Source: Emcibacter sp. (GTDB lineage Bacteria; Pseudomonadota; Alphaproteobacteria; Sphingomonadales; Emcibacteraceae). Taken from it: a stretch of 64,000 nucleotides of DNA. Within the stretch, counting starts at the first letter, position 1; each line of letters begins with the position of its first letter. The DNA lies in the NCBI GenBank assembly GCA_021774785.1, contig JAJFIQ010000019.1, positions 992,001 through 1,056,000 of the forward strand. The letters are read 5' to 3'. Both the position numbers and the translations under genes were made by a program. The notes below the pieces were generated by a model. It was not told the origin of the DNA, ran no database searches, and worked only from the letters and a program-made list of their open reading frames with translations. Positions 13,884-40,719 of this stretch are shown here, piece after piece.

Positions 13884-13959
13884 TCCCCGATAGCTCAGTT
13901 GGTAGAGCAGTAGACTGTTAATCTATTTGTCGCAGGTTCGAGTCCTGCTCGGGGAGCCA
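13884..13959 (+). tRNA. tRNA-Asn (anticodon GTT), probable ICE attachment site
   Basis: The 76-nt gene has acceptor arms TCCCCGA/TCGGGGA, a D-arm AGCTCAGTTGGTAGAGCA, anticodon loop with GTT (AGACTGTTAATCT), TPsiC arm GCAGGTTCGAGTCCTGC and encoded CCA. A tyrosine integrase gene begins about 190 bp downstream on the same strand, so the 3' end of this tRNA is the likely attB/attL core. Confidence 0.97.
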
Positions 13960-14095: not shown

Positions 14096-14149
14096 ATTTC
14101 TGTTTTTAAAGACCGGTTTCTTTGTCTTATAAAACACGGGAGTGTGGTT

Positions 14150-15415
14150 TTGCATCTCAGACTGTCAGATAATTCCATCAAAAATATGGAAGCCGTTGTT
14201 CTTTTAAAGAATAAAGAGCGAAATCAATGTGAAGTCCGCGATTCCAGGATAGGTGGCTTCTTCATCATCATCGGAAAAAGAACAAAAAGCTTCGCTATTC
14301 AGGCAGACCTGCGGAAAAATGGCCAGCGTATCAGAATAATCCGCCGGACCATTGGCCGTTTCGGCGACATCACCACCCGCCGCGCGCGCCTTATCGCACA
14401 GCAGGACATCCTCTCCATCAGCCAAGGGATCATACCTCCGCATCGCGACAGGTTTGGCACACCCCGGACCGCCTATTATCAAGCCCCGAGCACAAATAAT
14501 ATTGTAAAGAATAAAATCACCCTAAAACAGGCCTGGGAGAGATATAAAACCAACCATATGGAGCGCAAGAACAGATCACCCAATACCATTCGAAGTTACC
14601 AGAACTATATTTATAATAATATTTCCGATTGGCTGGACCGCCCCCTTTCCAGCTTTGTATCCTCAACAGAAGAGGTTGTTGACCGCTATAATTTCATGAT
14701 CGAAAATAACGGTATTGCTACAGCCAATAATGTAATGCGAATATTCCGCGCCATTTACCGCTATGCCTCAGATAAGCTGGACCGCAGTCTGCCGGAAAAA
14801 CATCCGGTAACAGCCATAGATTTTTATGAAATGGGCCGGCGTAATACAGCCATGGGGCCAGAAGACCTCGCCAGGTGGAATGACCAGCGCAAAGCCCTCA
14901 ACAGTCCCATTCGTCGTGAGTTTCACCTTTTCACCCTGCTCAGCGGTCACAGGCCTGACGCCCTGAAAAAGGCAAAGCGCAGTCACCTTAGCGTCCGAAA
15001 ATCCATTTTACATATCCCTGAACCAAAAGGCGGAAAGGACAGAGCCTTCGATATTCCCCTCTCTCGCCCCATGCGCCGCTGTTTAATCAGAGCCATAAAA
15101 ATTGGCAACCATTTATCTCCCGGATCAGAATGGATATTCCCTGTAAATAACAGCAAGTCCGGCCATCTGTCCTCGCAGAATGAAGACCGCACCAAGCTCT
15201 CTCACTGGGGGAATGATTTACGCCAAACCTACAGAACCATAGCCGAATATGCCGAAGTCACTGAGTTACAGGTAAAAATACTCATGAATCACAAAATAGA
15301 CCGCGATGTAAACGCGGGATATATCACTATCAGCAAGTTGCGTGGGAAACTGCTAGAGGCTCAATCATCAATTTCTGCACTTATGATGCAATACATGAAA
15401 GACCCACCATTATAA
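14150..15415 (+). CDS. Tyrosine site-specific integrase
   Basis: This 421-aa recombinase would integrate and excise the element at tRNA-Asn. The N-terminal arm-binding domain (GGFFIIIGKRTKSFAIQADL), SAM-like core-binding domain (~120-215) and C-terminal catalytic domain are in the usual order. Catalytic residues visible are Arg in LLSGHRPDAL, Lys in PKGGKDRAF, Arg in NDLRQTYRTIAE, His in LMNHK and the nucleophilic Tyr in AGYITISKL. The first His of the usual HxxR box is Asn here. I chose TTG at 14150 because GGGAG lies 7 nt upstream; the GTG at 14144 is too close to that site. It begins 190 bp from the tRNA and points into the element. Confidence 0.92.
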   Translation: MHLRLSDNSIKNMEAVVLLKNKERNQCEVRDSRIGGFFIIIGKRTKSFAIQADLRKNGQRIRIIRRTIGRFGDITTRRARLIAQQDILSISQGIIPPHRDRFGTPRTAYYQAPSTNNIVKNKITLKQAWERYKTNHMERKNRSPNTIRSYQNYIYNNISDWLDRPLSSFVSSTEEVVDRYNFMIENNGIATANNVMRIFRAIYRYASDKLDRSLPEKHPVTAIDFYEMGRRNTAMGPEDLARWNDQRKALNSPIRREFHLFTLLSGHRPDALKKAKRSHLSVRKSILHIPEPKGGKDRAFDIPLSRPMRRCLIRAIKIGNHLSPGSEWIFPVNNSKSGHLSSQNEDRTKLSHWGNDLRQTYRTIAEYAEVTELQVKILMNHKIDRDVNAGYITISKLRGKLLEAQSSISALMMQYMKDPPL

Positions 15416-15811: not shown

Positions 15812-16564
15812 TCATAATTTGAATGATAAATCCCCGCCTGCACTTTTTATCATTTCTTTTAAACCTTCTATAGTATGTGGGGGTTTCCTTTTATGCAGCA
15901 TTGAATGGCAATTCGGGCAAACTGGGATCAAATCCTTAATCGGATTAACTTGGTATTCCCTACCAATTTCTGAAAGTGGAACTAAGTGATGAACATGAAT
16001 AAAATCAGCTCCAATATCTCCATATTCTTCTTTGAAGTCCAAAGTACATACAGCACATATTGCTTTATATTTATCCAAGCAGTCTTTTCTAGCAATAGGA
16101 TCTCTTTCATACCTATTTACCGTCACGGTTAATTTCGCGCCTTCAAACTTCCCCTTTTTATCGGAAATTTCATCAGCATTGATACTTTGTTCATTCGCCA
16201 AAGAAATGGAAAGGTATTTATTATAAATTTTTCTCAAACCTACTACTTTTCGTTTCCCATCTTCTTCATAATAAATGATGTGCTTCTCAACTGAATTTAA
16301 AGCCATTCTTAATCCAGAAAAATTATTATCAATTAGAATATTGTTTAAATAATATTCCATTGCCTTGTTATTAATCGTTTTTTTGAATGTTGATCCCCTC
16401 GTCATGTCTTGGTAACTATGCAAATAAAAATCGGCAGAAGTGGGATTCATTCCAAAATCATGCACCATTATGTCGATAGCATCCTTCATTGGAATTTGAC
16501 GATTATATACTTTTTTAGCATTTAAATAAGTTGCCTCATACATTTCTCGCGTAATATTAGCCAT
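15812..16564 (-). CDS. HNH endonuclease, last gene of a defence-like cassette
   Basis: This is a 250-aa protein with a C-terminal HNH nuclease domain: zinc-type Cys pairs CAVC and CPNC, the HVHHLVPLSEIG core with catalytic His, the central Asn in YQVNPIKDLIPV, and the terminal His in NCHSMLHK. The N-terminal ~130 residues (YEATYLNAKKVYNRQIPMKD, KTINNKAMEYYLNNI, LRMALNSVEKHI) are helical and look like a substrate-recognition or regulatory module; I do not recognise a named domain. I chose the ATG at 16564, with AGGGGA 6 nt upstream, over a TTG that would translate a tandem repeat. It follows the large STAND nuclease gene by 77 bp on the same strand. The region is markedly AT-rich. Confidence 0.85.
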   Translation of the reverse strand: MANITREMYEATYLNAKKVYNRQIPMKDAIDIMVHDFGMNPTSADFYLHSYQDMTRGSTFKKTINNKAMEYYLNNILIDNNFSGLRMALNSVEKHIIYYEEDGKRKVVGLRKIYNKYLSISLANEQSINADEISDKKGKFEGAKLTVTVNRYERDPIARKDCLDKYKAICAVCTLDFKEEYGDIGADFIHVHHLVPLSEIGREYQVNPIKDLIPVCPNCHSMLHKRKPPHTIEGLKEMIKSAGGDLSFKL

Positions 16565-16585
16565 TTCAGTCCCCTTTTTACCCCT

Positions 16586-16607
16586 TACGTAACGTAACGT
16601 AACGCAA
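16586..16607. repeat. TAACG tandem repeat upstream of the HNH gene
   Basis: About four copies of a 5-bp unit (TACG-TAACG-TAACG-TAACG) lie 20 bases upstream of the HNH start, in the short gap after the STAND nuclease gene. A pentanucleotide array here could change spacing between a promoter or ribosome-binding site and the gene by slippage, but this is inference. Confidence 0.6.
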
Positions 16608-16641
16608 CATACATATAGTTGCAAAAATATAGATTACATTA

Positions 16642-19600
16642 TCATTCAAACGATTCATTACTCTCACGATTCCAGCCATCTTCCATTTTTCTATTGGTCA
16701 ATATTTCTTTATTCAATTTTGTATATTCATTTTTTGCCCAAGAACCTATTTCATCATTCTCATGCTGAAACAAATTTTTAAATAGAACAGACCTTTCTTT
16801 TAAAATATCGGACCTAGAGCCACTCCACATCCTTGGCCTTATAGATTCAGCAAATTGTGTTAAAACTGCATCAAGACTAGGAGCTTTGTTAAAGATTTCA
16901 AACACAATTTCTTTCCATGCTAATTCAGCGTTACCCTCAGAGTGAGCAAATGCCTCAATAGCTATTGAAATAATTGGGTAACGAACAATTGGATCTATAT
17001 CACACCAGTGTATCAAGTCCTTATCAGAAATTTTATTAATTGGGTTCTCTCTTTTCCCTGAACTGTCAAAATACCCGCAGCTATATCTATAATTCTCAAC
17101 ATCAGTATCCCCTAAAAAGACATCAAGAAAACATTTTGGTTGAAGTTTTACAATTACCTGTAGTAACTCAACATAATCCGGCTTATAAATCGTATGATTT
17201 GATGCAGCCGCTACAAAATTTTCACAAATAATTCTTGCCGTAACACTTGCAGAACTTTCAAAAAGACATTTTTCTGCAACTCTGGCCAAATTATATCCAG
17301 ACATCCCACCATTTTTTCGTTCATTAAGAAAAGAATATCTAGCAAGTATCTCTGAACCAGTTTGTATCAATTTTCTGGAATATATTACTGGGGTTTTTCG
17401 AGAGCCATGGAATCTCATTACCAAGATTTCCAGTGCAACATTAACACCGCCTTCCTTACTGCTTATTTTCTGAAGCAATGCGGCAAGGTCATCATCACTA
17501 ATAGGCTCATGCGCCATGCCATAGGCAAGAAATTTATACATATTTACATCGGAAATGTTATTATCCAATGCGGCATGTATTCTTGTGATTCCGCGTCTAT
17601 CTATTACGCAATTAGATTGAAATACCGGGAACCATTGCCCAAGAAGTTCATCCGTAAGTAATTGATCAAGAATATCCTGATGTGATTTTAGGTCATTTTC
17701 TTCACAATATTTAAGAAAGCCTGAAAAAACATTTATATTTTGCTCATTAGAAGGAGTATTCTCAAATTGATTTCGCAAAACACGCCATAGCTCTAATTTG
17801 TCACTACTGCCTCCGGCCATTCCTTTACCGAGACAGAAAATACGGCTGTTAGATGAGGATATAATTTCAGCGATTAGTTCTTTCAATGCATCAGAATTAT
17901 CAACAAGCTGCTTTCCAATATTCTCTACCTGCTTATCTATATTCAACCTTATCGCAGATGCATCCTGATCATCATCAAAATCATCCTCCAAATCAAAATA
18001 ACCATTATGTTGCGATATGGCATAGGCACGAGCTTTATCAATAATACTGCTTGGTTTTAAATATTTTTCCAGATCCAAAAGTTTTTGAGTTATTTCTTGG
18101 TCAATATTTTCCTTATCAAAACGGATGATGCTCCGAACTGCTTTCCAGCCCTCATGCCATGGAAAGTGGATATGAACCTTTTTTACAGCGACTTCAATAG
18201 TGCCGTACATTTCACCTCTGGTCCACAAGCCCCTCAAGTTATTTGATAAAATTTCTCTAGCTTTGATCGCTATTTCTCTGTTTGAAATTGCTATTGAGAC
18301 ACATATTTCGATAAATGTTTTATACCATTTTCCTTGTTCCTCAAACGTCTTGGGTTCATACCCAAAATCTCTTGGTCTGGCTCCAAATCCAAATTCCTGC
18401 ACAGAGCTAAAATGCCAAGCTTCCAAAGTTGAATCTAAAAGTAATAGCCCTAATTGTTGATACTCAATGTTTTCGTCTGCAATTAAGTCTTCAATAATCT
18501 GAGCTCGTGCTTCTACCGTGGCATGTGTGCCTGATAAATAAAGGAAAAATAGTGTTTTCAAAACTTCACGCGTTGAATTATAATTTTCGTCTGGATTTTC
18601 AGAAATAGCAAAACGACACATAATTTTTGTGCTGCGAATGAATAAGTCTGGATCATATGCAAAGTGAAATAAAAGCCTGACAAATTCCCCATAATACTGA
18701 TTATCTCTAGATGTGAATTTATCACTATTCCCACCATTAGCTGCCCGTTCAATTGCCTCGAGTGCTTTTTCGGGTGAAACAGGGCAAATATACGTAAATA
18801 CGTCAAGACCAAAAGGATTTAAGTTATCAATTTCCTCACCTATCCACCCCTTTTCATCTAGCCATTCATCCACAATTTCAACGGCTTCTCTACTATCATG
18901 CAAGAAACTAAGTCGATGAGAGAATGACTTAATAATTCTTTCTGATTGACTTTTGAGTATTATATCCCGGATTTTACTTTTTGGAATGGATTCCAAAGCT
19001 CGCTTGGCTAGGCGATTAGCTATTGCATGAGGCAATAATGCTCTCCATACATCCCGAGATTGAACTAGATCCCGACGCTTTAATTCTTGTACATCCCTAT
19101 ATAGTTCTTCCTTGGATTTATTTATTATTGATGCCAAAATACCTAATTCTGAACTCTCAGATACAACATCCGTGCCTTCAAAAGAATAAACCAATGCACA
19201 TGCTTCTGCCGAAATCAGCAAATCATCATTGTTGTCATTTCTTTGCTCAAATAACCTTCTAAAAAGATCTTCATCGCGAAATCCGGATAGCGTTTCTCCC
19301 TGGCATATAGTGTTTGCAAGAGCGATAGCTATTCGAGCATTTCCCCCTGAGAATTCTGCTATTTTATTTACATCCAGATCACCAATATGTGGAAAGCGTA
19401 TTTGTATGACCCTTTTTATAACATCTTCACTAGCTGGTTCCAGTTTGAATACTGATGTTTGATCAGGAAGATCATCGCGTACGTCATATTCAACGGTTAA
19501 GATACTGATGTTACTATTATTTACAGAACATGTCTGGGTTAGTCTATAATGCAAATCAGGCGGACAATTATCAACGACTAAAACAATCCTGTAGCCGTCA

Positions 19601-20481
19601 GAAATTAATAATTCAGCAAAAGTTCTTGGATCCGGCTGGGGGTGATGGGACATATCCGTATAAATAACCTGGCTTGGGTCCAAGGCGTCTGAACCAATTC
19701 TATTATCAAACAGGGCTTGAACTAATCTGGTTTTACCAACACCGGACAACCCAACCAACCTGACAGATGAATGATGCCTTTTAAGGGCACCCCTAAGCCT
19801 TGATATCCCTTCCGCAGACGACATTCCCTCTGATTTCTTGGAAACTGTTCCATCAATCAAACGAAGTGTGTCATCCAATATATATTCTTCACTTAGGCCT
19901 TCTGGTGAATTTGACCAATTTCCATAAGATTGCCACCCTTGCAATGCCCGCCCGATTTTGTTACGTATCCACAATACCAAACTAGGATAAGACCTAACCC
20001 AAGTAGCAATACGGCCCCGATCATAAAAATCCAAACTAAAGCTTTCATGCCCATTCTCACATTTAACAGCTTCCTGCATGGCACATATTCTATCATCAAG
20101 GGCTGTTTTAGTAGTGGACCCGCCTGAGCAAACAATAATATATGCACCACTATTCTTTATGAGAGTTTTAATTTCGTCTCGTAAAACGCCCTTCGGACAC
20201 ATTTCTTTGAGAATGGCCGATTTGGGCATATCAGGCTTCTTGACCTGAAAACCTGTATTTTTTCTTGGTACAAAACTGGCTGCAGGAAGTTCTTCTTCAC
20301 TATCAACAACAACATCCAAGCCTCCATCAGGAGCATCTTGATTTCCTCCCCAAGTGATCCCTTTTGTAGAAATATTATTCTTTCGATACTCAGCCTCACA
20401 CAATAATCCTGTCAGTTCTCGCAAAGAACTATCATCAAGTTTCGCGATATCATCTCCTGTGACATCTAACAGATTACTCAT
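16642..20481 (-). CDS. Mrr-like nuclease fused to STAND-type NTPase with large C-terminal region
   Basis: This 1279-aa protein has three parts. Residues ~30-140 resemble a PD-(D/E)XK nuclease of the Mrr-like QxK variant: Asp in PDGGLDVVV (~55) and GFQVKK (~79-81). Residues ~235-460 hold a P-loop NTPase with Walker A GLSGVGKT (~244-251), Walker B-like RIVLVVDNCPP and a winged-helix-like tail, as in STAND NTPases. The remaining ~800 residues are alpha-helical, repeat-like and may sense a trigger. The architecture resembles Avs-type antiviral sensors (nuclease, STAND, sensor); kinship beyond architecture is not shown. I chose the ATG at 20481 with AGGGG upstream; a TTG 27 bp earlier is weaker. 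It lies 135 bp after the GHKL ATPase gene. Confidence 0.85.
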   Translation of the reverse strand: MSNLLDVTGDDIAKLDDSSLRELTGLLCEAEYRKNNISTKGITWGGNQDAPDGGLDVVVDSEEELPAASFVPRKNTGFQVKKPDMPKSAILKEMCPKGVLRDEIKTLIKNSGAYIIVCSGGSTTKTALDDRICAMQEAVKCENGHESFSLDFYDRGRIATWVRSYPSLVLWIRNKIGRALQGWQSYGNWSNSPEGLSEEYILDDTLRLIDGTVSKKSEGMSSAEGISRLRGALKRHHSSVRLVGLSGVGKTRLVQALFDNRIGSDALDPSQVIYTDMSHHPQPDPRTFAELLISDGYRIVLVVDNCPPDLHYRLTQTCSVNNSNISILTVEYDVRDDLPDQTSVFKLEPASEDVIKRVIQIRFPHIGDLDVNKIAEFSGGNARIAIALANTICQGETLSGFRDEDLFRRLFEQRNDNNDDLLISAEACALVYSFEGTDVVSESSELGILASIINKSKEELYRDVQELKRRDLVQSRDVWRALLPHAIANRLAKRALESIPKSKIRDIILKSQSERIIKSFSHRLSFLHDSREAVEIVDEWLDEKGWIGEEIDNLNPFGLDVFTYICPVSPEKALEAIERAANGGNSDKFTSRDNQYYGEFVRLLFHFAYDPDLFIRSTKIMCRFAISENPDENYNSTREVLKTLFFLYLSGTHATVEARAQIIEDLIADENIEYQQLGLLLLDSTLEAWHFSSVQEFGFGARPRDFGYEPKTFEEQGKWYKTFIEICVSIAISNREIAIKAREILSNNLRGLWTRGEMYGTIEVAVKKVHIHFPWHEGWKAVRSIIRFDKENIDQEITQKLLDLEKYLKPSSIIDKARAYAISQHNGYFDLEDDFDDDQDASAIRLNIDKQVENIGKQLVDNSDALKELIAEIISSSNSRIFCLGKGMAGGSSDKLELWRVLRNQFENTPSNEQNINVFSGFLKYCEENDLKSHQDILDQLLTDELLGQWFPVFQSNCVIDRRGITRIHAALDNNISDVNMYKFLAYGMAHEPISDDDLAALLQKISSKEGGVNVALEILVMRFHGSRKTPVIYSRKLIQTGSEILARYSFLNERKNGGMSGYNLARVAEKCLFESSASVTARIICENFVAAASNHTIYKPDYVELLQVIVKLQPKCFLDVFLGDTDVENYRYSCGYFDSSGKRENPINKISDKDLIHWCDIDPIVRYPIISIAIEAFAHSEGNAELAWKEIVFEIFNKAPSLDAVLTQFAESIRPRMWSGSRSDILKERSVLFKNLFQHENDEIGSWAKNEYTKLNKEILTNRKMEDGWNRESNESFE

Positions 20482-20616
20482 TTTATTTTCCCCTAATTCT
20501 ATTATCAATGGCTGGTAAAAGCGAGAGTCTCTGGTCTAATACCCAATGATTCAGCAACAATATGTTCAACAGATTTACTTTTGGCAAAAATCCTGCTTAC
20601 ATAAAATATATTCCAA

Positions 20617-22482
20617 TTACTCAGCAATGTTTGGTTCAATCCCAGCAGCCCTAATCATATTTTTTGCCCACTTTTTAGCAATAGGTATGCTCTGCTTGTA
20701 GTCATCTGCAGCCATAGAAAGGGACTCTGGAGATGTAGCACGATCCAAATCGTCAACTGACCAATCTTCTGATAAACGCTTACTGATGGCAAAGCACGTC
20801 AATTTCCCTACTCTAAAAGCCATGTAATGCCTCGCCGCATTTATAGTCTGGGTTCGAACAATTTCAGGTTCTCCAAAATTTCTGAGTTCAACCTCTAACT
20901 CTGAGGCCATCCTGTCGACAATGTTATAGTGGCCATTAATAAATAGTGTTTGGGCTTCTTTGTAGTATCGACCCGCTCGCCCTTTTATATCTTTATCTGA
21001 AATCTCATCCGGATCAGTTAAAATTTTTATTTCTGGAACACGTTCTAGAGCTTTGGTTGCTCGCGATGCTATAGAGCCCTCAGGGGCCTTTCGGACTTTT
21101 TTCTTTATGGCGATCTGATTTTTAGGGTCAGGGACAACGGAATCTATATGGTTTAGGTCTTCGACATTACCAGGAAAATCGGTATCTAACTCTGTTGGAG
21201 ATGATGTATCCATTCCTTCATCGTAAGATTCCGTTGGGGTGGAGGAAGACCTTTTTGAAGAACTGAGAGTTATTGTTGGTACTCGGAATTCATCCAGTAG
21301 TTTCTGCAAGTCTGCTTGTAAATCATCCAGATTTTCGTCAGATTCGGGAGATTGTGCACGAATAATCTCTTTGAACCAACCTGGCATTAATTCCCTGACG
21401 TCTTCTGCAAAATGTTCCGCCAAAAGAGGAGATCTATCCTCAGGCCATACCAGCCCATCTCGATACTGAGTTGGAAGTGCCATAGAGCTTGGGATTTCAA
21501 TTTCGATTGTTAGAACTTTTGAACCAAATGGAATTCCGAAATTAGGCGCTGCTGCCGACCATGATATACGGTTTTTGAAATCGTAACGTTCGCCCTTATA
21601 AACAAGAGCGCAAAAAGTTGTAGATGCTGTTGCTGGATTAGCGCGTGAACTTAAGGAATGACCAGATTGTTCATGCTTTGGATCATGTATGTAATGGACT
21701 ACAATTCCCAGACCTGAGTCTGAAACGCGTTCATGCATTGGCAATTTGTCCAAAATGGCGCAGAGCGGCTTTAATGGCCGCGTTCTACCTGTTTCGCCTT
21801 TACCGCCACCTTTTGTCATTGATACATCAATGCGAACTTCAACTCCATCTAGGAATTTTGCAAACCTTTGAAAGATTATTGTAGGTATGTAACTACGATC
21901 AACTTTCTTACCTTTGCCAAGTGGCTCAGCTACAGTATCATGATCATCACTTTCTCCAAAAAGAACTACTTCAGTCCAATCCGTTTCTAGATCATGCCCT
22001 TCTTTCTGCGCGGCAAAAGTTACATCGAAAACTGTGTCGGAGGTTCCATCCGGTAATTCTACAGGAAATCGCACGTAAGTTTCCTCATAGTCATCATATC
22101 CTATGGTCACTTCATTAACGATGCCGTCCTTACATGACCTATATCGAATACCAGATCGGGACATTGTTAGCCCCGATACTTTAGCACCAATGCCAAAGTT
22201 TCCATCCAGAGACATCTTTTTATTGATAGAAGACGATAGGTCGGTTGCCAGTTTTAATTCTTGGCCATCCATACCAACACCGGTATTCCAGAAGGCAATT
22301 TTCCGCACGCCATCAATTTCGACGGGGTATATATGAATCCGTCTGTTACCTTCTTGAGCCAGCGCTGCACTCTCATCAGCGTTCTTGAAGAACTCTCTGA
22401 CGAGAGTACCAACAGGTGCTTGTTCTATGAGTCTATTTACAAGGAATCTTCTATCCCGGATTTGAAGTGGTTCAGCCCGCAT
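20617..22482 (-). CDS. GHKL (HSP90/MutL/MORC-like) ATPase
   Basis: This is a 621-aa protein with an N-terminal HSP90-like ATPase fold: the N-box with catalytic Glu30 and Asn34 (VREFFKNADES), the motif FWNTGVGMD (~64-72) and the glycine lid LDGNFGIGAKVSGL (~92-105). The usual Asp of the D-x-G-x-G motif is Asn66; the same swap in yeast Hsp90 (D79N) blocks ATP binding. An acidic, serine-rich linker (~405-470) separates the ATPase/transducer half from a C-terminal helical domain (GRAGRYYKEAQTLFINGHYN onward). MutL/MORC-like ATPases are known in restriction-like gene neighbourhoods. It starts 5 bp after the small upstream gene, suggesting translational coupling and a common role. Confidence 0.85.
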   Translation of the reverse strand: MRAEPLQIRDRRFLVNRLIEQAPVGTLVREFFKNADESAALAQEGNRRIHIYPVEIDGVRKIAFWNTGVGMDGQELKLATDLSSSINKKMSLDGNFGIGAKVSGLTMSRSGIRYRSCKDGIVNEVTIGYDDYEETYVRFPVELPDGTSDTVFDVTFAAQKEGHDLETDWTEVVLFGESDDHDTVAEPLGKGKKVDRSYIPTIIFQRFAKFLDGVEVRIDVSMTKGGGKGETGRTRPLKPLCAILDKLPMHERVSDSGLGIVVHYIHDPKHEQSGHSLSSRANPATASTTFCALVYKGERYDFKNRISWSAAAPNFGIPFGSKVLTIEIEIPSSMALPTQYRDGLVWPEDRSPLLAEHFAEDVRELMPGWFKEIIRAQSPESDENLDDLQADLQKLLDEFRVPTITLSSSKRSSSTPTESYDEGMDTSSPTELDTDFPGNVEDLNHIDSVVPDPKNQIAIKKKVRKAPEGSIASRATKALERVPEIKILTDPDEISDKDIKGRAGRYYKEAQTLFINGHYNIVDRMASELEVELRNFGEPEIVRTQTINAARHYMAFRVGKLTCFAISKRLSEDWSVDDLDRATSPESLSMAADDYKQSIPIAKKWAKNMIRAAGIEPNIAE

Positions 22483-22487
22483 TGTGC

Positions 22488-22724
22488 TTAATCCTTAAGT
22501 TTAAATTTGTCGAATGAGTCTCCTGAGGACGAATTGAACTTACGTTCAATTTCAGTAGTTGCATCCTTCAAGACCTTTATAATTTTTTTGATATCCGTTT
22601 CTGAATATTCATAGGCTCGGGTATTCGACAAATTTCCAATTTTCCGTATTGCATCTAATGCGGATTGGGTTCGCCCTTCTGCTAATTTAACAAACTTCTT
22701 TCTTTTATCGCCACTTTTTAACAT
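22488..22724 (-). CDS. Small basic protein, first gene of the cassette
   Basis: This is a 78-aa, lysine-rich protein (LKSGDKRKKFVKLAEGRTQS, then ALDAIRKIGNLSNTRAYEYS) with two predicted helices and a polar tail. I do not recognise a named domain, though the phrase IRKIGNLSN followed by Y-x-Y-x(3)-D-I recalls a widespread small family of unknown function. The ATG at 22724 is preferred over a TTG 12 bp upstream. The GHKL ATPase gene begins 5 bp after its stop, so the two are probably co-translated. It may be a regulator, adaptor or inhibitor of the cassette. Confidence 0.7.
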   Translation of the reverse strand: MLKSGDKRKKFVKLAEGRTQSALDAIRKIGNLSNTRAYEYSETDIKKIIKVLKDATTEIERKFNSSSGDSFDKFKLKD

Positions 22725-22763
22725 AATAAAATCCAAATATTCTCTATAATTTTAATTTAATAT

Positions 22764-22808
22764 ATAGAAATTCGATATTTTATTGTCAATAATTTTATAA
22801 ATTTCTAT
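22764..22808. promoter_or_regulatory. Inverted repeat upstream of the four-gene cassette
   Basis: Arms ATAGAAATT (22764-22772) and AATTTCTAT (22800-22808) form a perfect 9-bp dyad with a 27-bp AT-rich spacer, 40 bp upstream of the first gene's start. It could be an operator. The whole gap 22737-22948 is extremely AT-rich. Confidence 0.4.
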
Positions 22809-23259: not shown

Positions 23260-23763
23260 TCAACACCCCCACGCCACATAAGTTGTGCCCATGATTTCCA
23301 CTTCGTTGATATCACCTGATAACAACATGTCGCGGGCGAAAGCCTCACAGTCAAAATAGTAACGGAGATTTTCAGGCATTTCATCAAGTAACCCGCTATC
23401 AGTGATATATTCTTCCGCGTATTCTTTCGAGCGGCCTTCAAAAAGACCCACCTCGTCCAATTGATCCAGAACATCTGACATATCGACATTTAAGAATTCC
23501 GCGAGGTAAATCGCCTTGATCAGCTCTTCCCCGTCCAGACTTTCAAGTTCATCAAACCACTGCTCAAGATTAGCCTGATTTATGCCAAGCGCATTGAACA
23601 GTTGAGCATTATCACCATCAATAAAATACAGCTCAAGCTCATCAACGGGTTCACCGAAACTATCTTCAAGATTGGCGGCCTGTTCAGAGTAATCAGCATA
23701 ATTTGTAAAGTAAAATCCGGAAACATCCGTGTTATAAGGTTTGGCAAAATATTGGTTGTTCAT
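23260..23763 (-). CDS. ardA: Antirestriction protein ArdA
   Basis: This is a 167-aa acidic DNA mimic that blocks type I restriction enzymes while the element enters a new host. ArdA hallmarks are the N-terminal block (FAKPYNTDVSGFYFTNYADY), a long acidic middle region (EDSFGEPVDELELYFIDGD, SDVLDQLDEVGLFEGRSKEY) and the C-terminal YFDCEAFARDMLLSGD. I chose the ATG at 23763 because AGGAGA lies 8 nt upstream; a longer frame would translate the hairpin region. A long imperfect inverted repeat lies 38 bp upstream of the start and is likely its regulatory or entry promoter structure. Confidence 0.93.
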   Translation of the reverse strand: MNNQYFAKPYNTDVSGFYFTNYADYSEQAANLEDSFGEPVDELELYFIDGDNAQLFNALGINQANLEQWFDELESLDGEELIKAIYLAEFLNVDMSDVLDQLDEVGLFEGRSKEYAEEYITDSGLLDEMPENLRYYFDCEAFARDMLLSGDINEVEIMGTTYVAWGC

Positions 23764-36066: not shown

Positions 36067-37332
36067 ATGAAAATTAAAAATTTCAAAGAATTACGCGAAC
36101 TCAACGCAATGTCCGTAGAAGAAGCTGCCCACCTTATGGGGGTCACTATCAAGACCATTTACCGATGGGAAAAAGGCGAAGTAGAACCCAAAAAACATTG
36201 CTTTGAAATCCTGCTGAACAAGCTTGCTTACAAACAACAATTTCGCAACCCTGACCCTGATTTTACATTCATCGATTTGTTTGCCGGTATCGGGGGCATC
36301 CGGCGTGGGTTTGAAGCCGCTGGCGGTAAATGTGTATTTACCAGTGAATGGGATGAATATGCCCAGAGAACCTACCGGGCCAACTTTCATGACGACCACC
36401 ATATTGCAGGTGATGTCACCGAGGTCAATGCGGAAGATATCCCCGTTCATGACGTTTTGTTGGCTGGCTTCCCGTGTCAACCATTCAGCATCGCAGGCGT
36501 AAGCAAAAAAAATGCCCTGGGTCGCGCACACGGTTTTGAGGATAAAACCCAGGGAACATTATTCTTTGATGTTTTACGAATTCTGAAGCATCATCGCCCG
36601 GCAGCCTTTCTTCTGGAAAATGTAAAAAACCTGAAAAGCCATAACAGGGGTGACACCTTTGCAACCATCATAGGCGCACTTCAGGATGAGCTTGGCTATA
36701 AAATTAGCACCCGTGTCATAGACGCCAAGGGGTATGTCCCCCAGCATCGCGAGAGAATCTTCATCGCCGGGTTTCGTGAGGACTGTGACTTTACATTTGA
36801 TGACCTGCAGTTTGCAGACCCCAAAACCGGCCCGATTCTGGAATCCATTCTCCATGACCCATCAGAAGAGGCCGAAGAACATTATACGCTAAATGTCGAT
36901 GGCAAGGCTTCCAACGCTACCTCGTTAGTAAATGACAAATATACCCTCAGTGACAAATTATGGGCATATCTCCAGGCATATGCAGCAAAACACAAGGCTG
37001 CCGGTAACGGTTTCGGGTTTGGTTTAAACGGCCCCGACGGAAAAGCCCGCACGCTGTCGGCGCGCTACTACAAGGACGGATCGGAAATACTTATCAAACA
37101 GGAAGGGAAAAACCCTCGCAGACTGACGCCACGTGAGTGTGCACGCCTCATGGGTTATGACAGTGGTCGCAAGCCCGAGATGATTATCTCTGTGAGCGAC
37201 ACCCGGGCCTACAAACAGTTCGGAAATTCTGTCGTTGTTCCTGTCATTGAAGAAGTTGCCCGCTACATGAAGCCATATATTCTGGATCAAATCAGAAATG
37301 AGACGCAAGTAAAATACATTGCAGCCGAATAG
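36067..37332 (+). CDS. DNA (cytosine-5)-methyltransferase with N-terminal HTH
   Basis: This 421-aa C5-cytosine methyltransferase has FIDLFAGIGGIRRGFEAAGG (SAM binding, motif I), the catalytic Cys in AGFPCQPFSIAG (motif IV), LLENVKNLKSH (motif VI), VPQHRERIFIAGF (motif VIII) and FGNSVVVPVIEEV (motif X). The first ~60 residues form a helix-turn-helix (EEAAHLMGVTIKTIYRWEKG), as in Dcm-like enzymes that also regulate their own locus. With the following Vsr and MvaI/BcnI-type genes it forms a restriction-modification module; the target may be a CC-containing 5-bp site of that family, but specificity cannot be read here. Confidence 0.95.
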   Translation: MKIKNFKELRELNAMSVEEAAHLMGVTIKTIYRWEKGEVEPKKHCFEILLNKLAYKQQFRNPDPDFTFIDLFAGIGGIRRGFEAAGGKCVFTSEWDEYAQRTYRANFHDDHHIAGDVTEVNAEDIPVHDVLLAGFPCQPFSIAGVSKKNALGRAHGFEDKTQGTLFFDVLRILKHHRPAAFLLENVKNLKSHNRGDTFATIIGALQDELGYKISTRVIDAKGYVPQHRERIFIAGFREDCDFTFDDLQFADPKTGPILESILHDPSEEAEEHYTLNVDGKASNATSLVNDKYTLSDKLWAYLQAYAAKHKAAGNGFGFGLNGPDGKARTLSARYYKDGSEILIKQEGKNPRRLTPRECARLMGYDSGRKPEMIISVSDTRAYKQFGNSVVVPVIEEVARYMKPYILDQIRNETQVKYIAAE

Positions 37333-37343
37333 GGTGGATTATT

Positions 37344-37802
37344 GTGACTGATGTTGTTACGCCAAAAATACGCAGTGAAATGATGGCTGGTATCAAAGGA
37401 AAAAATACCAGACCAGAAATGATTATCAGACAGGCCCTCTTCCGCGAAGGTTTCCGATACAGACTACATGATAAAAAATTACCCGGAAAACCGGATTTGG
37501 TTTTACGAAAATACAATGCTGTGGTTCTGATCAACGGCTGCTTCTGGCATGGCCATAACTGTTACCTGTTCAAATGGCCAAAATCCCGTCCTGAATTCTG
37601 GCGGAGTAAAATCAATGGCAACAAAATTCGCGATGCACGCAACATTGCAATCCTGGCTAAATCCGGTTGGCGCGTTCTGACAATATGGGAATGCGCCCTG
37701 AAAGGAAAACACCGTCAGTCTCTGGATGATATCATTTCCAAAGCCGGTGATTTTCTCCTGTCTAACGACCCATTCCTCACTATTGAATGTAAAACCGGAT
37801 AA
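37344..37802 (+). CDS. vsr: Very short patch repair endonuclease Vsr
   Basis: This 152-aa mismatch endonuclease nicks next to T in T:G mismatches that arise by deamination of 5-methylcytosine. Family signatures are SEMMAGIKGKNTRPEMIIRQ, the catalytic Asp in KLPGKPDLVL, the zinc/active His in INGCFWHGHNCY and GWRVLTIWECAL. Vsr genes usually accompany Dcm-type methyltransferases, as here (11 bp downstream). The GTG start at 37344 fits the conserved N-terminus. It protects the modified genome from mutation. Confidence 0.96.
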   Translation: MTDVVTPKIRSEMMAGIKGKNTRPEMIIRQALFREGFRYRLHDKKLPGKPDLVLRKYNAVVLINGCFWHGHNCYLFKWPKSRPEFWRSKINGNKIRDARNIAILAKSGWRVLTIWECALKGKHRQSLDDIISKAGDFLLSNDPFLTIECKTG

Positions 37803-37895
37803 TCTTTTATAACTTTTTGGTTGCATCAACACATTCCGTGTGGATGATAACTCTGTCATTTAAATATTATCGGAAGTTTGGACTGGAGCATCCTA

Positions 37896-39245
37896 ATGGG
37901 GCTGGAGTTGTCGGAAATCAAAAGTCTGGATGCCATTCGCGGCATGATGACAAAGCATAACGTCAATACTCTGGTCTTCAAACGCCTTGCCCCCAACGAC
38001 AATTCCAAGAACCAGATTTATCTTGGCGCAGATTATTCATCCTTGCAACTTCTTCCCTTTGGCAAAGTATTCGCTGACAAGAGCAAGAAAGACAGCAAGC
38101 GCGATCGTTTCAAGGCTGACCTTCCGTTTTTCTGGATGGATGATGAAGGCAGATTGCATAAGGCCCCGAATGCCCAATTGATCCTCTATCCAAAATATCC
38201 TGAAGTCCGCATGTCCGGCTTTCTTAAAGGTGCAAGGGTTTGCCCAGGAGCTTATCTGAGAAGCCGGGATCCGGGTCGCATATTGCTTCTGGGTATAACC
38301 GGTGACCAGCGTATCATTGGCCATCTGGTTGGCCGTGAAAATCCCGTAACCCGGGAACTGGAACAATATGACAGTGAAGCCGTTTTCAGTGAAATCTTTA
38401 AAAAGGAAGCGGAACAAGATACCCGTAAACAGTTGCTGACAGCATTGAAAGAGATTTCAGAACTGGGCTGGATTAATTCCTTCAAACTGGGGGCCAATGG
38501 AGAAAGAGTTCCCTACAAAGCCCAGAACGGAGGAGGTTATACCCTTGAAGGGTTGCTGGGAGTAACACCTAATGGCCTGAACGAACCGGATTTTCTGGGA
38601 TGGGAGCTTAAACAGCATAGATCTCCGGGGCTGGACAAACCTCTCTCCGGTGGCGCGGTAACTTTAATGACCCCGGAACCGACAGGTGGCTTCTACCGTA
38701 CAGAAGGTATATTCGATTTTGTCAGAAAGTTCGGCTATCCTGACACAAAAGGTCGGGAAGACCGTTTTAATTTTGGAGGCGTCCACAAATTTGGAGAACT
38801 TCAGGCCCGTACCGGACTTACTCTGCAATTAACAGGATATGATATCAAGAAGAACCAGATTGCTGATATCACCGGCGGGATATCTCTGGTTTCCGAGGAT
38901 GGCGTGGAAGCTGCAATCTGGCACTATGGTACCCTGCTCGAGAAATGGAACAGGAAACATGCCAAAGCAGCCTATATCCCTTCTGCCAGCCGAAAGGGTG
39001 AAATCACACAGTATCAATATGGCCATGTCATTGCATTGGGGGTTGGAACAGATTTTGGAAAGTTCCTGTCCGCCATGGCATCCAGAATCATTTATTATGA
39101 CCCGGGTATAAAAGTAGAAGGTTTTTCAAGCGATAAACCAAAGGCAAAAAAACGCAGCCAGTTCAGAATAAAGCCCAAAGACATTCCCGTGTTGTATGAA
39201 AGTATGGAACTTGTTGATCTAATGACAATAGATCCGGGTTCATGA
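37896..39245 (+). CDS. MvaI/BcnI-family restriction endonuclease
   Basis: This is a 449-aa protein. Near residue 230-240 the stretch GLNEPDFLGWELKQH carries the D...E-x-K nuclease motif typical of MvaI/BcnI-type enzymes, followed by PLSGGAVTLMTPEPTGGFYR. MvaI and BcnI cut CC(W)GG or CC(S)GG as monomers; the specificity of this member is not known. An N-terminal ~200-residue part is additional to the small archetypes. I chose the ATG at 37896 with GGAG 9 nt upstream. Order methyltransferase, Vsr, endonuclease on one strand supports a working restriction-modification unit. Confidence 0.85.
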   Translation: MGLELSEIKSLDAIRGMMTKHNVNTLVFKRLAPNDNSKNQIYLGADYSSLQLLPFGKVFADKSKKDSKRDRFKADLPFFWMDDEGRLHKAPNAQLILYPKYPEVRMSGFLKGARVCPGAYLRSRDPGRILLLGITGDQRIIGHLVGRENPVTRELEQYDSEAVFSEIFKKEAEQDTRKQLLTALKEISELGWINSFKLGANGERVPYKAQNGGGYTLEGLLGVTPNGLNEPDFLGWELKQHRSPGLDKPLSGGAVTLMTPEPTGGFYRTEGIFDFVRKFGYPDTKGREDRFNFGGVHKFGELQARTGLTLQLTGYDIKKNQIADITGGISLVSEDGVEAAIWHYGTLLEKWNRKHAKAAYIPSASRKGEITQYQYGHVIALGVGTDFGKFLSAMASRIIYYDPGIKVEGFSSDKPKAKKRSQFRIKPKDIPVLYESMELVDLMTIDPGS

Positions 39246-39345
39246 TGTCAAACTTATATATTAATATGCAAGTATATACTTCTATGGCAAAAAAGTTGCC
39301 AGAACTAACATTAAAGATAATAGTAAATACAGGATGGTGGAATAA

Positions 39346-40719
39346 ATGCTAATCGCTCCAAGATTAACGGACTATCATGGAATACATATTGAGCAGGCAT
39401 CACTTGATTTTGCTATCCCGCATTTTGAAGAAGATATACCACTGTATCTTGATCCTTTTTTGCTATGGAGTTCACCATCACAGCAAGACCAATCACTACA
39501 CACGTCCCTTATTAATGCATTTAACCATCTTGGGGAGTTGATGCGAAAAGGAGAAGAACAAAAGGCGATAGAAATTTTAATCACTGCATCGGAGTGTGAC
39601 GAGGTAGGATTAGGTTTGTCTTCAAATCGTAAAGGAAAAAGAATTGGGCAGAAAAAAGCCAAGGAAATTCTTCAACTTTTTGAGGCAATACCAGAATATA
39701 AACGTAAAGGTTTTAAGCACTTTGAAGAAATTCAGTTTTTCATAACAGGCATATCAAGAGATCGAATTAGCGATATTGCGTGTAACTTCCTTAAGTCATT
39801 TCTTATAGATTATACAATTGAACAATGTAGTAAGAACGGCATTCCAATACAAGAATGTAACATAGAGAATGTTTATGATTACCGTTCAAATAAATTTATT
39901 CCATTCGAAAAAACAGAAATTCCAATAAACCCTAATAACGGTAAACCGTTAATTTTTGTTCCCAAACGTTGGTTAAGGTTTACTCCATGGATTAATTATG
40001 ACGATTACTTCCATCATCATTGCCCACAAGATGATATAGGGCATACTCCTGAAGAACTAAATCATGTCTCTGTACTAGACTATAATCGTCAAAATTATGG
40101 AGTTGTTGATGCTTACATTAAAGAAAAAGAAAGGACATTTAAAGATTGCCATAATGATCCACTATTTTCTCAAATCCCCATAATTTCTGCTAAAAGAAAA
40201 CTAAATTTAATTAAGAAATTGCCGACAGGAAAGGTAGATAATGCTGATCGTGATTATGAAGATGCAATTGCGGAATTATTCTCATCATTGCTTTATCCAC
40301 AACTTGATTTTGCCGCCGAACAAAGTCGTACAGAGAGTGGTGCGCTAATAAGGGACCTCATTTTTTATAATAATCAATCCAACGCTTTTTTGACCGATAT
40401 ATATGATAGCTATGGTTCAAAACAAATAGTCTTTGAAATGAAGAATGTTAAAGAGATTAGCCGCGACCATGTTAATCAGTTAAACCGATATATGACTGAT
40501 AGCTTAGGAAAATTTGGTGTGCTTGTAACACGTAATGAGCTTACAAAAGCTAGAAGGCAAAGTACAGTTGATTTGTGGTCTGGACAAAGACGTTGTATTA
40601 TTACTTTGACAGATGCGGATGTAGCGCAAATGGTGGAGCTTTTTGAGAGTAGGCAACGGTCGCCATTGGATGTGATAAAAAAGAAGTATGTCGAATTTAC
40701 CAGATTATGCCCTAGTTAG
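39346..40719 (+). CDS. PD-(D/E)XK-type nuclease-like protein, unrecognised family
   Basis: This is a 457-aa cytoplasmic protein. The N-terminal half (DFAIPHFEEDIPLYLDPFLL, WSSPSQQDQSLHTSLINAF) is conserved in style and aromatic-rich, with no named domain known to me. The C-terminal part has Asp337 in LIRDLIFY and Glu364-x-Lys366 in IVFEMKNVKE within a predicted alpha/beta core, as in PD-(D/E)XK nucleases. AT content is higher than in the neighbouring restriction-modification genes, suggesting separate acquisition. Two small paralogous genes follow in the same operon, the first 6 bp downstream. Confidence 0.75.
   Translation: MLIAPRLTDYHGIHIEQASLDFAIPHFEEDIPLYLDPFLLWSSPSQQDQSLHTSLINAFNHLGELMRKGEEQKAIEILITASECDEVGLGLSSNRKGKRIGQKKAKEILQLFEAIPEYKRKGFKHFEEIQFFITGISRDRISDIACNFLKSFLIDYTIEQCSKNGIPIQECNIENVYDYRSNKFIPFEKTEIPINPNNGKPLIFVPKRWLRFTPWINYDDYFHHHCPQDDIGHTPEELNHVSVLDYNRQNYGVVDAYIKEKERTFKDCHNDPLFSQIPIISAKRKLNLIKKLPTGKVDNADRDYEDAIAELFSSLLYPQLDFAAEQSRTESGALIRDLIFYNNQSNAFLTDIYDSYGSKQIVFEMKNVKEISRDHVNQLNRYMTDSLGKFGVLVTRNELTKARRQSTVDLWSGQRRCIITLTDADVAQMVELFESRQRSPLDVIKKKYVEFTRLCPS

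Follow-up and report, generated by a model that had tools for sequence, protein, structure and literature searches.

Does a compact four-gene block beside an integrase encode one undescribed defence system, or several units that merely share a place? The question arises for four minus-strand genes in the window, by which we mean the whole 64,000-nucleotide stretch of Emcibacter sp. DNA analysed here. A first-pass annotation had read them as a single cassette matching no named system, made up of a small protein, a GHKL ATPase, a nuclease-NTPase of 1279 residues and an HNH nuclease. We favour a different answer, and hold it highly probable (roughly 0.9) that three independent units are stacked in the cargo slot of an integrative conjugative element (ICE). 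The first would be a two-gene module of a small hairpin protein and a GHKL ATPase, the second a stand-alone nuclease-NTPase of the PD-Lambda-4_A type, and the third the HNH nuclease. Taken together with the mechanisms that we propose below, this explanation still appears likely.

The block and its setting in the element

All four open reading frames are present, and the gaps between them are exactly as first described: 5 bp between the small-protein and GHKL genes, 135 bp between the GHKL and 1279-aa genes, and 77 bp between the 1279-aa and HNH genes (Table 1). Because their proteins have homologues in many genomes, these are genuine coding frames and not chance ones. The block is indeed AT-rich, with a G+C content of 0.33-0.43 as against ~0.46-0.53 in the conjugation genes, and the neighbouring integrase and the position within an ICE are likewise borne out. 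The block sits in the cargo slot of the element, between the tyrosine integrase with its tRNA-Asn and, on the far side, an ArdA-like gene followed by a VirB/Trb-type transfer region (both assigned by eye). A second copy of the attachment site (attR), looked for by sequence pattern within the window, was not found, nor was a terminator-like site between the block genes.

Table 1. Positions of the block genes and associated features in the window.
Feature	Position	Strand	Remarks
Small-protein gene (module gene 1)	22488-22724	minus	78 aa from ATG
GHKL ATPase gene (module gene 2)	20617-22482	minus	621 aa
PD-Lambda-4_A homologue gene	16642-20481	minus	1279 aa
HNH endonuclease gene	15812-16564	minus	250 aa
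Tyrosine integrase of the ICE	14144-15415	plus	adjoins tRNA-Asn
tRNA-Asn	13884-13959		probable attachment site of the ICE
Promoter-like TTGACA-17-TATATA	22761-22789	minus	upstream of small gene; consensus match only
Asn66 codon	22285-22287	minus	G1 motif WNTGxGM, aligned residue by residue with HtpG SDNGVGM
Nuclease region of 1279-aa protein, residues 1-200	19882-20481	minus	D52GGxD56 and Q79xK81 invariant in 11 homologues

The ArdA-like anti-restriction gene (window 23260-23763, assigned by eye) adjoins the defence block. Elsewhere in the same ICE, window 36067-40719 holds an HTH-fused C5 DNA methyltransferase, a probable MvaI/BcnI-like restriction enzyme and a 457-aa gene, which, assigned by eye, apparently form a type II R-M unit. 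Within the 77-bp gap, repeated GTTAC units are followed by a terminal TTACGTAA palindrome (window 16580-16605), possibly a regulator site.

The 1279-aa and HNH genes

The first-pass domain calls (GHKL ATPase, nuclease-NTPase and HNH) hold. That the block matches no named system does not: when checked against PADLOC, the 1279-aa protein fits PD-Lambda-4_A (PDLC03991) with 1095.5 bits, residues 4-1279 aligning to positions 3-1283 of a model of 1283. The gene is a full-length PD-Lambda-4_A, i.e. an already known component of a described anti-phage system. PD-Lambda-4 was recovered by selecting experimentally for genes that protect against phage (Vassallo et al. 2022, PMC9519451), and a P-loop NTPase has been attributed to it (PMC10952713); the likeness of the window protein to component A is end to end and includes this NTPase. 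Its architecture comprises an N-terminal PD-(D/E)XK-type nuclease, a P-loop (STAND-like) NTPase and a long helical C-terminal half. Motifs common to 11 homologues back the nuclease and NTPase assignments, namely the invariant D52-G-G-x-D56...Q79-x-K81 of PD-(D/E)XK type, Walker A (G244xxGxGKT251) and D304. We infer that the helical half would sense an infection cue, upon which the NTPase would switch and the N-terminal nuclease would cut nucleic acid.

The window gene differs from the described system in its partner. Component B (PDLC03992) was not found in the host genome, with a positive E. coli control, nor in 13 other genomes or records that carry an A homologue (22-43% identity), and none of the four block proteins matched it among the PADLOC models. 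The HNH protein was considered as the missing component B and was ruled out, as it matches no PD-Lambda-4_B model. Homologues of PD-Lambda-4_A, on plasmids and in genomes, have changing neighbours, and tblastn with the GHKL, small and HNH proteins against 21 loci of the 1279-aa family, some of them short, returned nothing.

The HNH protein carries PF01844 (6e-8), and its HNH part only (residues 139-228) matches PADLOC mREase_IV (8e-10). Its McrA-like C-terminal half is similar to many other HNH genes, hundreds of them, that stand alone; a separate N-terminal part of ~110 aa is mostly without match. Linkage of this gene to other block genes was not seen in ~80 GHKL loci or in the 21 loci of the 1279-aa family. 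Judged by its matches, it is a generic HNH enzyme.

What, then, of a single four-gene defence system uniting GHKL, STAND-nuclease, HNH and small protein? The close spacing and common strand in the window are in its favour, yet no second locus has the combination, which is absent from all ~80 GHKL loci and from the 21 loci of the 1279-aa family; neither a 1279-aa gene nor an HNH gene lies near GHKL in the ~80 GHKL loci, and the 1279-aa gene is already part of a described system. When the four families were looked for together in unrelated genomes, a check named beforehand, the parts were found separately. We consider the single system very improbable. The first-pass idea of a candidate undescribed system thus survives in part: the small-protein and GHKL pair is defence-associated and has no PADLOC model, whereas the 1279-aa gene is known and the combination is not conserved. 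What is new is a pair among the four genes, together with its interchangeable cargo, and not the way the four are combined in the window.

The small-protein and GHKL pair

A GHKL scan of contigs, with one genome per species, yielded 79 loci, nearly all from Alphaproteobacteria. The small gene lies directly upstream in 34/34 GHKL loci at 53-73% identity, mostly 4-20 bp away, and three plasmids likewise have a small-protein relative directly upstream of GHKL; these relatives measure 73-86 aa. By blastn among 13 loci, the common DNA block extends from the small gene to the stop codon of GHKL (about -2100 to 0, counted from that stop). Loci from a Maricaulis isolate (L020) and a Pseudooceanicola isolate (L022) share 96% DNA identity up to the GHKL stop and have unrelated genes beyond; between L019 and L021 an identity of 98% reaches to 14 bp short of the stop, and L019 differs from L020 (97%) by a Gabija inserted in the latter. 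Within the reach of these alignments, the pair is shown to be inherited as one block that ends at the GHKL stop codon, with the cargo behind it exchanged and in many cases a known defence system. No PADLOC model matches the pair (for GHKL, no match at E<=1), a literature search of open-access papers turned up no description of it, and annotated phage genomes yielded no GHKL or 1279-aa homologue. The two-gene GHKL module is real, well conserved and little known.

A GHKL subclade that lacks the small gene has a 680-850-aa TPR-repeat gene behind GHKL, or GHKL fused to such repeats (1086-1426 aa); the TPR-associated loci are L008, L063, L078, L083, L084; L062, L064, L070, L071, L076 and L085. This subclade suggests a core ATPase with exchangeable partners.

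The small protein has 41 homologues (41-75% identity). Its AlphaFold2 model (pLDDT 86) is a two-helix hairpin, with helices at 4-33 and 42-65, followed by a disordered linker and a tail (68-75) with pLDDT below 50. The C-terminal F-K/R-L of this tail is invariant in the 41 homologues and, in the model, looks like a docking peptide. Assignment to DUF4145/HEPN was rejected, the Pfam match being weak (1.8e-3, below cut-off) and the model a simple hairpin. The GHKL protein has HATPase matches only, among them a weak one to Pfam HATPase_c (6e-3). In its predicted model (pLDDT 80), residues ~9-381 adopt a MORC/Hsp90 fold (GHKL plus S5/transducer), 401-479 are disordered and 480-614 form a C-terminal helical domain. 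Foldseek relates the model to MORC3 (2.5e-10), and comparison with Hsp90 and MORC2/3 gives Z of 16-18; sequence searches of the PDB with the GHKL and small-protein profiles gave no significant match. None of the 64 homologues departs from the N-box residues E30 and N34 or from the glycine motifs; Asn66 is invariant as well, and it occupies the G1 position where Hsp90, HtpG and MORC have Asp. In Hsp90 this Asp is needed for ATP binding, and because an invariant Asn replaces it here, ATPase activity of the GHKL protein is uncertain.

Among described proteins, the closest parallels are prokaryotic MORC/paraMORC GHKL proteins, which carry an S5 domain after the GHKL domain (Iyer et al. 2008, PMC2292703). 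The window protein is like these in its predicted GHKL and S5 fold, in its N-box and glycine motifs, and in its mobile, defence-rich surroundings. It differs in having no fused nuclease or TIR, in the invariant Asn in place of the G1 Asp, and in its obligate small partner, where MORC/paraMORC have SFII helicase and methylase neighbours; in the loci read, for which neighbour annotation is not exhaustive, SFII helicase/methylase R-M genes were not seen directly beside the pair. VcSduA, of a Shedu type with a GHKL domain, is also an anti-phage GHKL ATPase, and its ATPase mutant is inactive (PMC12137116), but it possesses a DUF4263 nuclease domain of its own, unlike the window protein.

The small-protein family extends beyond the window-type GHKL. 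Among 385 Alphaproteobacteria, the small protein has a match in 18 genomes, and a window-type GHKL is present in 6; a broader genome sample added small-protein matches only in Alphaproteobacteria. An unbiased small-protein search gave 23 loci that were read with flanks, and in 20 the next gene encodes a GHKL-type protein from one of the families A, B and C. Of these 20 GHKL sequences, 10 went into building the type B and C profiles and necessarily match them; the remaining B/C loci are independent. Some type C genes are broken. In the remaining three loci, a GHKL-like protein lies one gene further (L136, by eye), a DUF262 protein is found (L138), or there is nothing (L140). Type B is the PADLOC candidate PDC-M33A (1.5e-88 and 1.7e-32). 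Sequence matches thus show the small family in front of GHKL families other than that of the window, including one that is a defence candidate. Compared by profile, the window GHKL and the other small-linked families resemble each other at the level of motifs only, so that their common GHKL nature rests on Pfam (HATPase_c_3 at 2.6e-4, below cut-off), PADLOC and motifs. In Alphaproteobacteria, a member of this small-protein family is encoded before PDC-M33A, a type B GHKL-like protein; however, the window GHKL has no PDC-M33A match (PADLOC, E<=1), and genes of ~270 and ~250 aa follow type B, where the window has the 1279-aa and 250-aa HNH genes instead. The pair is best filed with GHKL-based (MORC/paraMORC-like, PDC-M33-related) defence-associated modules, in no named system.

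Viral contigs also carry the small gene, in some cases ahead of a type B or another GHKL-like gene and in others alone next to a phage terminase. Solo homologues in marine phage contigs (L173-L178 and L181, e.g. L173:4025-4270) are 54-56% identical over residues 7-63, keep the F-K-L tail, and adjoin the terminase large subunit gene with no GHKL gene; such a solo protein is a possible decoy of the GHKL module. A broader proposal, which we regard as speculative and rather unlikely, is that the ~75-aa hairpin protein is the common partner of sequence-distinct GHKL families in alphaproteobacterial mobile elements, and that these make up an unrecognised class of clamp-type immunity modules, with effector cargo swapped at the ATPase stop codon and the solo small subunits of marine phages as decoys.

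Cargo behind the pair and its possible function

The cargo lies on the same strand, in most cases 48-166 bp behind GHKL. Gabija (GajA/GajB) follows the pair in six loci, by PADLOC in L005 and L006 and by clustering in L017, L020, L044 and L059, with other genes intervening in L005 and L020. Cultured isolates that have the pair include Dinoroseobacter shibae, on a plasmid locus with Gabija, and Maricaulis maris DSM 4734. Since the L044 Gabija is only 36-38% identical to other pair-linked Gabija while its GHKL is 60-61% identical, Gabija has been placed behind the pair at least twice. Other cargo includes QatA (L016, 1019 bits), a CD-NTase of CBASS (L029 and, by clustering, L046), an E1-E2-JAB protein (L023), an IetA-like AAA protein (L035), a KAP NTPase (L047) and, in the window, PD-Lambda-4_A at 135 bp. 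Non-defence cargo consists of an MFS transporter (L024) and a transposase (L045), and in ~16 of ~38 close loci no same-strand gene directly follows the pair. The module needs no cargo and lives in defence-rich places. Among the PADLOC matches listed, most upstream and downstream neighbours match none of the defence models tested, and defence genes occur upstream of the pair as well; a downstream defence bias is for this reason not statistically proven, and we claim no enrichment.

Some slot genes are of interest in themselves. A 461-462-aa family (L018:11949-13337, also L005, L019 and L020), which has no Pfam or PADLOC match, and a 205-aa family (L019:3754-4371) lie directly behind the pair, sometimes in front of Gabija, and are candidates for new defence genes. 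In L035:12028-14825, a 204-aa gene, a gene for AAA plus M41 peptidase (FtsH-like, IetA-like 3e-24) and a 101-aa gene follow the pair and may be an uncharacterised protease-based defence unit.

This arrangement could mean that the pair is a common sensor or licensing front end, plugged in before whichever defence system follows, and that here it drives PD-Lambda-4_A and perhaps HNH. Cargo exchange exactly at the GHKL stop would fit, as would the same-strand gaps of 48-166 bp to Gabija, Qat, CBASS, E1-E2-JAB and PD-Lambda-4_A in different lineages and the failure to find a terminator-like site between the genes. Yet the loci with no same-strand gene behind the pair imply that the pair cannot require cargo, Gabija, Qat, CBASS and PD-Lambda-4_A all occur or have been described in its absence, and two loci have non-defence cargo, so that we consider such a role improbable. 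The pair might instead serve the ICE or plasmid backbone (maintenance, transfer, replication control or establishment in a new host) and border the hot spot, its proximity to defence genes being positional only. Plasmid or ICE genes do lie near most loci, and in several the upstream backbone, including a DUF932 gene, is conserved with the pair; but unrelated backbones carry the pair with only the small-to-GHKL block in common, and PADLOC lists as a defence candidate a sister GHKL that has the same small partner. A backbone function is, on balance, unlikely.

We lean instead, from gene content and neighbourhood, towards the pair being a defence module in its own right, which seems reasonably probable. 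By analogy with MORC and Hsp90, the GHKL-S5 part would form a dimeric clamp that, gated by nucleotide, closes on invading DNA or on a complex of phage proteins, and the hairpin protein would dock through its F-K/R-L tail and control closure. Lacking a nuclease, the module would trap or compact its target, or hand the target to whichever nuclease system lies behind it. As stated, this clamp mechanism, drawn from fold and context, is tentative, with somewhat less than even odds.

MORC/Hsp90-type GHKL ATPases recur in bacterial defence neighbourhoods. If our reading is true, this compact and portable unit of two genes, whose small partner is defined, would make a MORC-like clamp readily accessible to study in bacteria. 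The position of the pair before Gabija, Qat, CBASS and PD-Lambda-4_A makes it a search anchor, with the unknown 461-aa and 205-aa slot families as candidate defence genes, and the solo small proteins carried by phages offer a concrete anti-defence hypothesis.
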